Assembly (NCBI GenBank): GCA_031259215.1
Contig: JAIRLU010000050.1
Coordinates: forward strand, 1 to 36,637
Direction: 5' to 3'
From: Treponema sp.
GTDB taxonomy: Bacteria; Spirochaetota; Spirochaetia; Treponematales; Breznakiellaceae
DNA: 36,637 nucleotides
Below the pieces are notes generated by a model. The model was not told where the DNA came from, did no database searches, and saw only the letters and a program-made list of their open reading frames with translations. Shown piece after piece: positions 1-25,903 of the stretch; within the stretch, counting starts at the first letter, position 1, and each line of letters begins with the position of its first letter. A program made the position numbers and the translations under genes.

Positions 1-117
1 GACTTGTTCGAGAACCCGGTTGGTTCTCGAACAAGTCTCCAAAAAACGTGGATTTCTTAATAAAATCCACGTTTTTTAAGCGGAAGTTGTTCGGAAACTG
101 AGGTTTCCGAACAACTC
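1..117. repeat. Tripartite hairpin intergenic repeat, copy 1
   Basis: Three successive hairpins fill this stretch. H1 is a perfect 16-bp stem (1-16 with 22-37, arm GACTTGTTCGAGAACC). H2 is a 15-bp stem (41-55 with 63-77) whose 3' side ends in six T, so it looks like an intrinsic terminator. H3 is a 14-bp stem (85-98 with 103-116) around a TGAG loop. H1 and H3 share the word TTGTTCG, and the outer ends of the element form an imperfect 16-bp terminal inverted repeat. Near-identical or covarying copies lie at 1907-2033 and 24142-24248. The element may extend left of the window. Function is unknown; possibilities are a MITE-like element, a terminator/attenuator or a protein-binding cruciform. Confidence 0.85.
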
Positions 118-178
118 TAATATAAGAAAATATGTTTCTCAAGATACCATGCAGGTCAAGCGGTAAATCCTTATTATA

Positions 179-1890: not shown

Positions 1891-1906
1891 AGCCTCGGCA
1901 CCAATG

Positions 1907-2033
1907 GACTTGTTCGAGAACCCGGTTGGTTCTTGAACAAGTCTCCCAAAAACGTGGATTTCTTAATAAAATCCACGTTTTTTATCGTTTTTTAAGCGGA
2001 AGTTGTTCGGAAACTGAGGTTTCCGAACAACTC
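1907..2033. repeat. Tripartite hairpin intergenic repeat, copy 2
   Basis: This copy is nearly identical to copy 1. In H1 a C-to-T change in the 3' arm converts a G-C pair to G-T, so pairing survives. H2 (AAAAACGTGGATTT arms) ends in a T-run and is followed by an extra ATCGTTTTTT not present in copy 1; TTTTTTATCGG also occurs at this point in copy 3. H3 is unchanged. The element sits in the gap between flbB and fliK, about 55 bp before the fliK ribosome site, where it could terminate or attenuate transcription. Confidence 0.85.
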
Positions 2034-2090
2034 AATATAAAAATGGTTGAAGTTTGGTAAGCTCCAGGCATAGTATGAGGAGGCTGGGTG

Positions 2091-3575
2091 ATGATGCACG
2101 TATCTCCCCGGATGCACAGTTCGGATGGGTCCCTTGAGGGAATGAGCGGGATGAATGAGCGAGGAGAAGCCCAATCGCTTAGTTCTAAGCAGGGTCAGGG
2201 AAAGTCCGGTAAACAGGACAAGTTTTTTGCTCGACTCCTTGAAGGGCTGGTCAAGAAGAGCCCCACGGGAACCGGCCCTCGGTTGAGTATTCTGGGGGAC
2301 GGCCAGCAGTCGGAAAAAGCCCTATCCGGTGATGAACGCACGGGAAATGCCGCGAAGAAAAATCAGCAAAAAAAGGTCCCCCTATCCGGTGGAGAAGCCC
2401 TGGAACGGGGAAGGTCTCGTTCTGGGGAAGAGGCACAGGACTTGCGCAGGAGTGGCGGGACTAACCGGGATCCGGGAGGGTCTTTTGCGCTCTTGGTTGT
2501 TCAGGAAGGACCCCATCCTAACCAGGCAGGCTCCCAGGTACGGCTTCAGAAAAAAGACGGTACCCCTTCGTTGCGCCATCAAGCGGGTAAGCCCCACCTT
2601 TCTTCAGGCCCAGGTTCCGGGACTGAAACCGGATCCGGGAATCCGCATGTGCAGACCGAAACAATGGTTCAGGACGCCGGTTCCTCGGGGAGTATCTCCA
2701 AGCTCAAGGTGAATAATCGGAATGCCCAGGATAGTACTGGTGCTGAAAAAGCAGGTTCTTCCAAGGCAGGGCTCTTTCGGACAGGTCGGTCCACGGATGA
2801 GCACCTGCAGCGCGCGCTGAATCCTCGACAGGGGCTGGAGGTCGGTGAAGAACCTCCCCGGAAGGGCCTCAAACGAGATGGGGATATGAAGACCCGGGAT
2901 AAACGCCGGGATCGGATGGACCTTCGGGATCTCCGTTCCCGGGATGGGGCGGAGCCTGTTTCAGGGTCTCTGGTTCCTGGGGATACAAAATCAGCAGTAG
3001 AAACCAAAACCCTAGAACTCACCGTGGACCTCCATACCGATACCCCAGATCGGGAAGCCCTGCCGGGTCCGCAAGAGACCTCCCTCACCGGCAGTTTTGA
3101 GGATCTCCTCGCCCGGGAGCTCTCTCAAACGCTCAACGGGGATATTGTCCGGCACGCCCAAGTGTTGCTGCGGGATGGGGGTGAAGGGACCATACGGCTT
3201 GCCCTCAGACCGGAATCACTGGGAAATGTAAAGATACACCTTGAATTAGCCGAAAAGAAGATAACAGGGCACATCATCGTAGAAAGCAGTGAAGCGCTTC
3301 GAGCATTTGAGCGGGAAATACATTCCTTGGAACAGGCCTTTAAGGATTCAGGCTTTGGAGAGACCCGCTTGGATACGGCCTTGGCCTCTGGGAGGGACGG
3401 GCAGGGAGGAAACCCCCAGCAGAGAGATGCTGAATCAGGGCCGTTCTTTTCAGAACGCCTGGCCCTGTCTACCTATGACACCGCCTCGGGAAGGAACGGG
3501 GAAAGGGAATTAGGCTTCATAGCAGCCGGGAACGGCGGTGTATCGGGCCATATTCCGATAGATATGCTGGTATAA
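2091..3575 (+). CDS. fliK: Flagellar hook-length control protein FliK (Tap1-like)
   Basis: The protein has about 494 residues. The first ~330 are low-complexity, hydrophilic and rich in G, S, R, K and P, as expected of the tape-measure part of FliK. The last ~160 hold the conserved Flg_hook domain (GEGTIRLALRPESLGNVKIHLEL at about 363-385, then SLEQAF), which switches FlhB from hook to filament export. In T. pallidum and T. phagedenis the gene before flgD is called tap1. Three start codons (GTG 2088, ATG 2091, ATG 2094) follow a GAGGAGG site at 2077-2083; 2091 has the best spacing. It is followed closely by flgD. Confidence 0.85.
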   Translation: MMHVSPRMHSSDGSLEGMSGMNERGEAQSLSSKQGQGKSGKQDKFFARLLEGLVKKSPTGTGPRLSILGDGQQSEKALSGDERTGNAAKKNQQKKVPLSGGEALERGRSRSGEEAQDLRRSGGTNRDPGGSFALLVVQEGPHPNQAGSQVRLQKKDGTPSLRHQAGKPHLSSGPGSGTETGSGNPHVQTETMVQDAGSSGSISKLKVNNRNAQDSTGAEKAGSSKAGLFRTGRSTDEHLQRALNPRQGLEVGEEPPRKGLKRDGDMKTRDKRRDRMDLRDLRSRDGAEPVSGSLVPGDTKSAVETKTLELTVDLHTDTPDREALPGPQETSLTGSFEDLLARELSQTLNGDIVRHAQVLLRDGGEGTIRLALRPESLGNVKIHLELAEKKITGHIIVESSEALRAFEREIHSLEQAFKDSGFGETRLDTALASGRDGQGGNPQQRDAESGPFFSERLALSTYDTASGRNGERELGFIAAGNGGVSGHIPIDMLV

Positions 3576-7288: not shown

Positions 7289-7455
7289 CTTTTTCAAAAC
7301 CCAGGGATTTTTGAAAAAGGTTCTAGAGCTCGTTTCAAAATCGGTGAGGGGGAAATTTCGTTTCCGATGAAAGGGGTTCCTGAAAAAACGGCCTAAAGTC
7401 CGTTTTTTTCCTTATGCTACGGTTGCTGTTTCAAGATTTGACATTCTGAAACAGC
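7289..7455. repeat. Diverged multi-hairpin element between motB and fliL
   Basis: Stem 1 is CTTTTTCAAAA (7289-7299) with TTTTTGAAAAAG (7308-7319). A second, imperfect structure spans about 7333-7372 (TTTCA..TCGG with CCGATGAAA). Stem 2 is AAAAAACGG (7383-7391) with CCGTTTTTT (7400-7408), terminator-like. Stem 3 is GCTGTTTCA (7425-7433) with TGAAACAGC (7447-7455). The order of outer hairpin, C/G stem in an A/T frame, and GTTTCA/TGAAAC hairpin parallels copies 1 to 3, but the primary sequence is largely different. Confidence 0.6.
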
Positions 7456-7493
7456 CTCTCTAGAGTAAAAATATAACGTGGAGGTAACAGGGC

Positions 7494-24037: not shown

Positions 24038-24141
24038 AGTACACTCCTCTTACTCAAAACTGAAACCCTATGCACCAAGTACCTTTCAAGCGGAATGAGG
24101 GCAACCGGTCCTGCAAACTTCTCGAAGGGGCTTCTTTATTG

Positions 24142-24248
24142 GACTTGTTCAATAACCCGGTTGGTTATCGAACAAGTCTTGCAAAATGCTCCGCATTTTG
24201 CTGTTTTTTATCGGAATTTGTTCAAAAACTGAAGTTTTTGAACAACTC
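24142..24248. repeat. Tripartite hairpin intergenic repeat, copy 3 (diverged)
   Basis: Same three-hairpin order as copies 1 and 2. H1: GACTTGTTCAATAACC with GGTTATCGAACAAGTC (24142-24178; one A-C mismatch). H2: GCAAAATGC with GCATTTTGC (24181-24201), followed by T6; this stem is unrelated in sequence to H2 of the other copies but still pairs perfectly. H3: TTGTTCAAAAAC with GTTTTTGAACAA (24218-24245), where paired G/C positions have become A/T on both sides. The element touches the stop codon of the IPT lipoprotein gene. Confidence 0.85.
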
Positions 24249-25903
24249 TATTGTATATACATACCGGTAATGGTAATGTCGCTCCAGAGGGAAGAATAAG
24301 ACGCTATGCCTCCTATCGCTTCTTCCCAGAGATTTTGTAGGGCATAATCCCGGTTACGCACGGTGATCCTCCCCCGAGGGTCCATCTGAGAAAGAACCTC
24401 CTGCCCTCGGGAAAAGGTGATCCGCTGGTTATCCAGATTGCCGAAATAATAAACCGCCGGCTCTTCATGAACATTGAAGTCCTCTGGAGCAAGGCCTGCC
24501 CCCAAATACGGATCCAGCGGTATCCAGCCGAATCCTGCAATCCAGAATTCCGCCCAGTAATGAGGGCTCGATATACGAGCGCGGTTGATAAGCACTCCGG
24601 CCACAGGAATGGCTGGTATGGCCACGGCTCTGGCCAGGGCGCAGAAGAGGAGCACTCCCGAATAGGCGTCCGCCTGTTTTTGCCCCAGCGCATCTAGTGC
24701 GCTGTTATGCAGGGGCCTCCCCTGGATGCCTCCTTCCTGTATAAGCCATTCGTATAATTTCCGAGCTTTTTCATAGGGATTCCGCTCTTTACCGATGATG
24801 GCGTTCGCTACTGCAGCTATTTCAGGGTTATCCGAAGGTATCAGCGGGGAAGGAAGGGTATATACCGTAGGAATCGGAGAATCTCCGATTTGTCGGATGG
24901 ACTGACTCTTCAGGGTCGTCTCCAGGGCATACACATCCACCAGGTATGACAGGCTTATACGAGCGCTGGTATTGGCGGCCAGATCGGTTAATTGAAACAG
25001 GGTAGTTCCCTGGTAATGTTCTGCAAAGGGATCTCTGTTCCGGGATAAAAGAGTAACATTCCGCTGGGAAGCGGAACTAACCGGATGGGGAATCCAGAGG
25101 TACAGGGTATTCGGGACTTCTGCCTCTTGTACCTGGATATCCACGGTATAGGCAATGGTGTAGCTGCGTTTTTCTTTGAAGGTTTTAGTCCCCGGCTTGT
25201 CGGTAATCGTAAAAAAGACCGGCTTGGAACTTCCCCCGGGGGTCTCCACCAGAATATTCCCGTTTACCGCTCCGTCAGGAATCCGCAGACGAATTTCCCG
25301 TTCACTCCAGAGCTCATACCCGAATTCCATTTCAAAGACCTCTACCACTTCCGGCTCGTACGGTACCTCAGGCACGGTAGGGGGTGGTTCAGCATTCCAC
25401 GTGAAAAACACCCCGCTTCTTTCCCGGGAAGCACCAAAACCACTTCCCTGTATGGTTATGAGGGTACCAATGGAACCGGATTCCGGTTTTATCGAACTGA
25501 TGTGAGGAGCGAGGCCGAGAACCTGGTTCTGTACCAGGTCCGGCATGGCTGCCCGATTTGAAAAGAGGAAGGGATTACTTTTCTTACCCTCTCTATGCAC
25601 ATACACGAGTCCGAATCCTCCCAAGGCCGGTATTTTCACGGTAATGCGCTCATCTTGCCAGGTAAGATATGAGGAACCAGTAGGAGGGATACCGGCGATG
25701 GTAATATAGGATTCATGCTGTTCGTCCCCAAAGCCGCTCCCCGCAATGGTGAGGATCTCCCCACTCATGCCAATCCGGGGATCAATCGAATGAATAAACG
25801 GAGCATCTTCTTTACAGGCATACAAACATATGCAGAACCAGGAAAAAAAGAACCCCCACCAGATCCGCTTCAAACCAACAGGCCCTTCCAGAGGACTTTT
25901 CAT
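24248..25903 (-). CDS. IPT/TIG-repeat lipoprotein with inactive-looking transglutaminase-like domain
   Basis: The 551-residue protein has a signal peptide with lipobox LYAC (C30), two IPT/TIG Ig-like domains (about 36-100 and 131-235; ILTIAGSGFG and LITIQGSGFG), a beta-rich linker and a transglutaminase-like core (about 390-490). In the core, the His and Asp regions are kept (SPHYWAEFW, WIPLDPYLG), but the position of the catalytic Cys reads ADAYSG, i.e. Ala. It is thus probably exported, membrane-anchored and either non-catalytic or using another chemistry. Its start overlaps the upstream gene by 4 bp, last in the ECF sigma operon. Confidence 0.8.
   Translation of the reverse strand: MKSPLEGPVGLKRIWWGFFFSWFCICLYACKEDAPFIHSIDPRIGMSGEILTIAGSGFGDEQHESYITIAGIPPTGSSYLTWQDERITVKIPALGGFGLVYVHREGKKSNPFLFSNRAAMPDLVQNQVLGLAPHISSIKPESGSIGTLITIQGSGFGASRERSGVFFTWNAEPPPTVPEVPYEPEVVEVFEMEFGYELWSEREIRLRIPDGAVNGNILVETPGGSSKPVFFTITDKPGTKTFKEKRSYTIAYTVDIQVQEAEVPNTLYLWIPHPVSSASQRNVTLLSRNRDPFAEHYQGTTLFQLTDLAANTSARISLSYLVDVYALETTLKSQSIRQIGDSPIPTVYTLPSPLIPSDNPEIAAVANAIIGKERNPYEKARKLYEWLIQEGGIQGRPLHNSALDALGQKQADAYSGVLLFCALARAVAIPAIPVAGVLINRARISSPHYWAEFWIAGFGWIPLDPYLGAGLAPEDFNVHEEPAVYYFGNLDNQRITFSRGQEVLSQMDPRGRITVRNRDYALQNLWEEAIGGIASYSSLWSDITITGMYIQ

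Follow-up and report, generated by a model that had tools for sequence, protein, structure and literature searches.

Three-hairpin repeats of termite-gut treponemes are non-autonomous transposons (MITEs) with covarying palindromic ends

We examined a window of 36,637 nucleotides, which is contig C284 of a Treponema sp. genome (2.73 Mb in 290 contigs, 77% complete), referred to here as the source genome. The window holds three copies of a repeat in which three hairpins follow each other in the order H1-H2-H3, as the first-pass annotation had described; their exact limits, refined by means of the flanking duplications, are given in Table 1. H1 reads ACTTGTTCNNNAACC-CGGTT-GGTTNNNGAACAAGT, H2 is a stem followed by T-runs, and H3 reads TTGTTCNNAAAC-TGAN-GTTTNNGAACAACTC. 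Copies 1 and 2 are members of the same subfamily; apart from a few bases, the difference between them is a 10-bp deletion between two T-runs in copy 1. The first G of copy 1 is also absent, the contig beginning within the element, and copy 2 has lost its last T. The H1 stem of copy 3 is imperfect owing to an A-C mismatch (GTTCAATAACC/GGTTATCGAAC), which is also present in most copies of subfamily B1, the sister of its own subfamily. The differences noted earlier between the copies, namely the H3 change from GTTCGGAAAC/GTTTCCGAAC to GTTCAAAAAC/GTTTTTGAAC and the H2 exchange (CGTGGATTT stem for GCAAAATGC/GCATTTTGC), are both genuine.

Table 1. Repeat copies of the window, with the hairpins and target-site duplications of copy 2
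Feature	Positions	Strand	Description
MITE copy 1	1..118	+	subfamily A; 10-bp internal deletion; right target duplication AAT 119-121
MITE copy 2	1906..2033	+	subfamily A; spacer between ORF 1058-1693 and ORF 2088-3575
Left target-site duplication of copy 2, AAT	1903..1905	.	flank comparison and empty site
H1 of copy 2	1906..1944	+	palindromic left end; outer arm is the left terminal inverted repeat
H2 of copy 2	1948..1982	+	terminator-like hairpin; A-run ahead, T-run behind
H3 of copy 2	2000..2033	+	palindromic right end; outer arm is the right terminal inverted repeat
Right target-site duplication of copy 2, AAT	2034..2036	.	flank comparison and empty site
MITE copy 3	24141..24249	+	subfamily B2; target duplication ATT 24138-24140 / 24250-24252

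A genome scan had rightly been called for in the first-pass annotation, and searching the source genome with the full H1 pattern at up to 3 mismatches revealed at least 263 copies (126 forward and 137 reverse), which were not counted twice because H1 on the opposite strand differs at 5 positions, while the reversed H1 control gave 0 matches. Together with the excess of the H1-arm pattern in the window (28 matches vs 8.3 in shuffles), this shows that the three window copies are not a product of chance. The elements are about 107–129 bp long, non-coding and dispersed. With a copy in roughly every 10 kb, they make up about 1% of the assembly and are a main repeat of the source genome. The element probably fragments the assemblies of termite-gut treponemes, since many contigs, that of the window included, begin or end inside a copy. 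Among 80 sampled copies the nearest-copy identity had a median of 98% and one element sequence was present 8 times, which indicates a recent spread.

The family extends well beyond this genome, as a covariance model built from 15 diverse copies matched 30 of the 36 genomes of the bacterial family, source included. Among the other families of the order, 5 of 23 genomes were matched by the model, their best E-values ranging between 3.0e-8 (G036) and 1.8e-5 (G053), far weaker than the top matches within the family, and a DNA search of the same families gave no match. The 50 weak model matches in G053 may represent a different hairpin repeat. In a pattern scan of named genomes, the matches listed were from Treponema, Spirochaetaceae or Spirochaetia, the exceptions being L178 and L180, contigs of 3.5 kb assigned to Tannerellaceae and Dysgonamonadaceae bins, which we suggest are misbinned treponeme contigs. 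We read the isolate names of the listed Treponema and Spirochaetaceae assemblies as those of termite-gut samples. Viral contigs showed no H1 match, and the literature searched held nothing relevant on termite treponeme repeats.

The element spans GGACTTGTTC to GAACAACTCT and is bounded by imperfect terminal inverted repeats (GGACTTGTTCGAGAACC vs AGAGTTGTTCGGAAACC). The cross-complementarity of H1 and H3, recognized in the first-pass annotation, is genuine and constitutes the terminal inverted repeat of a transposon. When the three bases ahead of GGACTTG were compared with those behind AACTCT in the 75 copies of the source genome with both flanks, they were identical in 60, vs 31.9 ± 3.2 (maximum 43) in shuffles, and the duplicated flank was nearly always ANT. 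For copy 2 the empty site was also identified: G002, G001, G006 and other relatives read GTAAC-AAT-ACAAAAATGG, with a single AAT, where the window has AAT-element-AAT. We conclude that the three-hairpin repeat is a non-autonomous transposon (MITE) and not a free-standing RNA family. It represents a new, family-wide MITE family of termite-gut treponemes, the unusual feature of which is that each end is by itself a covarying palindrome. This short gene-free element is very probably moved in trans by an IS5-family DDE transposase.

In the source genome and its relatives, we identified DDE transposase genes that begin just within ends of the form ANT-(A/G)GACTTGTT(C/T)NNNAACC, and this IS5-family element shares with the MITE both its ends (AGACTTGTTCGAGAACCC) and the ANT duplication. 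The best complete end pair was found at L138 in G001, AAT-AGACTTGTTCGACAAC...GTATTTAACTGGGTTCTCGAACAAGTCT-AAT, of about 870 bp and with a decayed transposase. When the right end of this IS is read inward (AGACTTGTTCGAGAACCCAGTTAA), it agrees with the MITE left end GGACTTGTTCGAGAACCCGGTT / GGACTTGTTCGAGAACCCGGTTGG past the inverted repeat; on the MITE side the match takes in the outer arm of H1 and the loop. The source genome yielded no partner IS that is both complete and intact, its IS copies being frameshifted or truncated at contig ends: the one in contig C270 is frameshifted and begins ATT-GGACTTGTTTAGAAACC, and in the one in C23 a 234-aa open frame runs off the contig. The partner transposases match the IS5 family model NF033581 with E-values of 7.5e-26 and 2.7e-28, below the equivalog cut-off, and 2 of 3 are above the cut-off for PF13359 (DDE_Tnp_4); a PDB sequence search with the transposase gave no match. 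We presume, from the ANT target only, that the partner belongs to the ISL2 group of IS5. Duplication of ANT has been reported for bacterial IS5 transposons in general (PMC4482050). The IS5-family element with the same ends is the likely driver of the MITE. The resemblance between the two is confined to the ends, and the IS ends, unlike those of the MITE, are not palindromic and so do not account for the palindromes of the element.

In the mechanism that we propose, the IS5-family DDE transposase would recognize the terminal inverted repeat (A/G)GACTTGTT(C/T)NNNAACC on the MITE, mobilize it in trans and insert it at (Y)ANT(R), with duplication of the 3-bp ANT. An intact partner IS would be expected to carry the ends AGACTTGTT(C/T)NNNAACC. 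Both the palindromic ends and the terminator-like hairpin in the centre presumably owe their persistence to their presence in the few active master copies, the arms being kept alike through repair between palindrome arms, recognition by the transposase, or both. The element may also have a side effect on genes, by terminating transcription or through the processing of transcripts.

Across genomes, the pairing of the stems was well maintained. In 15 diverse copies, H1 and H3 were paired in 96.0% of cells, vs 88.8% in shuffles and at most 48.4% with slid partners, and both sides had changed in 10 pairs (5.8 in shuffles) and in 40 cells (12.1 in shuffles, at most 5 when slid). A larger comparison, in which 52 H1 haplotypes represented 38 genome labels, agreed with this, with 788 Watson-Crick cells against a shuffle maximum of 739. 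H2 was swapped for unrelated stems in many genomes, in which a stem, a T-run and AGCGG mostly remain. Hence the palindromes are genuine and their arms are kept alike at the scale of the family.

The first-pass annotation had taken such paired changes as selection for structure, which would make the repeat a structured or cis-regulatory RNA family whose three hairpins are kept by selection in each copy. Across genomes, paired changes do exceed the shuffled and slid controls by far, and this strong covariation speaks for an RNA, as do the persistence of the H2 stem with its T-run while the sequence changes and the lower variation of stems than of unpaired positions in subfamilies B1 (1.2% vs 3.2%) and B2 (1.1% vs 6.0%). 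Inside the source genome, selection for structure was not supported: relative to the subfamily consensus, 76 cases of a pair broken by a stem change stand against 16 of compensation, stems of the largest subfamily vary almost as much as its unpaired positions (2.7% vs 3.4%), and covariation there was rejected as a sign of selection. The paired changes within the genome are founder differences between a few subfamilies, and since later mutations mostly break pairs, selection on RNA structure is not demonstrated; the family-scale covariation is not decisive either, because palindrome repair would also produce it. Single pairs switch directly, e.g. between T-A, C-G and G-C, suggesting that the arms are copied from each other or selected in active masters rather than maintained in each copy. 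Moreover, the whole window had no Rfam match at the gathering threshold, the non-Watson-Crick cells of H1 are mostly not plus-strand G-U (plus-strand wobble in 8, minus-strand wobble in 18 and neither in 31), lineages with a mismatched H1 are abundant (G020: GGTTGTCGCCCAAG), and gene context and orientation are inconsistent. We therefore consider a structured RNA very unlikely; a MITE with ANT duplications and an IS5-family partner takes its place, and no free-standing RNA role is indicated.

Gene context was examined in about 368 kb of stretches with a home-made gene caller, where 44 copies were located, 16 adjoining a contig edge and the other 28 being classified. No conserved context was found among the sampled copies, the orientations and distances of the neighbours being varied, and no copy lay within an open frame, although this method would score a copy that had split a gene as intergenic. 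These copies bear on another explanation, that of a mobile transcription terminator or insulator which benefits the host, with H2 as the intrinsic terminator. The 4–6 T behind H2 in most variants, and the A- and T-runs that flank it in subfamily A, are what such a role would predict. On the other hand, the spacers were used about in proportion to their length (16 copies in same-direction, 7 in divergent and 5 in convergent spacers), and between same-direction genes the T-run strand agreed with the genes in 7 cases and opposed them in 9. Copy 2 itself is in sense orientation, with same-direction genes on both sides; at that position a strong terminator would cut off the downstream gene. Given the lack of orientation bias a selective terminator role was rejected, and we regard the host-beneficial reading as unlikely. 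An element of REP type moved by a RAYT (Y1 HUH) transposase, in which H1 would be a short palindrome that also occurs alone, could account for the ten solo H1 units of 39 bp that we detected. Each of these solos has matching ANT duplications, and the inverted repeats and 3-bp duplications, of solo and full units alike, point to a DDE transposase; the GTAG/CGTC head is absent, the ends being ANT-(A/G)GACTTG with duplications, and these ends are common to the IS5-family partners. A RAYT/REP origin was thus rejected on the target duplications and is extremely improbable.

For the MITE, the solo units could mean that H1 transposes independently, which is possible. They were not accepted as proof of it, since two of the three solos of the source genome (L018 and L039) join an H1 arm to an H3-type end (GAACAACTCT) and fit a deletion between similar arms. 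It is conceivable, but rather unlikely, that the palindromic ends are functional in transposition, each end offering two opposed, co-evolving transposase-binding arms or an extruded hairpin, and that the 39-bp H1 alone transposes. If so, few units that a DDE transposase moves would be as small as this palindrome.

Several known systems resemble the element in part. Like the prokaryotic type II MITEs (PMC10969869), it is shorter than 500 bp, gene-free and intergenic, has terminal inverted repeats, a target duplication and stable transcript hairpins, and is similar to its IS only at the ends; unlike them, it has two palindromic ends with a replaceable terminator-like hairpin in between. RUP of Streptococcus pneumoniae (107 bp, with IS630-Spn1; PMC2229807), compared by description, is alike in size, in having at least 100 copies, in its intergenic location and in sharing its ends with a resident IS, but it has a TA target and an IS630 partner instead of ANT and IS5. 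The IS5 family (NF033581, IS5_4-like) has the inverted repeat and the 3-bp ANT duplication, and the transposase of the putative partner is homologous, whereas the MITE does not code for one. The CIR repeats of Caulobacter (PMC2229807) are also about 110 bp, intergenic and made of two palindromic arms and a linker; their mobility is unproven and they carry GANTC motifs, while insertion of the present element is shown by the duplications and the empty site. SPRITE and BOX of pneumococcus (PMC10969869), again compared by description, are likewise small and mobile and have terminator-like hairpins or modules, but in another host.

The change from a supposed RNA family to a mobile element illustrates that covarying intergenic hairpins of high copy number can mimic structured RNA, and target duplications should be checked first in such cases. 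Across dozens of genomes, the covarying palindromic ends also offer a natural test of palindrome repair vs selection.

Some minor observations were made on the copies and their surroundings. An inner-arm variant of H1, TCTCACAAGTC for TCGAACAAGTC, recurs in several genomes (L028, L038, L083, L102, L165, L187 and L243); it breaks the H1 stem and looks like a two-base inversion. Other variants (L094, L114 and L093) have extra hairpins or short tandem units within H1, H2 or H3, a sign that these copies may have grown by insertion or slippage. The TAG stop of the ORF at 24248-25903 on the minus strand is built from the T of the target duplication and the AG of the element, and the stop of an adjoining gene arises in this way at 4 of the 28 copies of the context sample. 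Finally, a second, unrelated hairpin repeat occurs at 1806-1896 and 7368-7458 (74% identical) and is found at 4 places in the source genome; relatives carry it in the corresponding spacer too, with coordinated differences between the two arms of its second hairpin.
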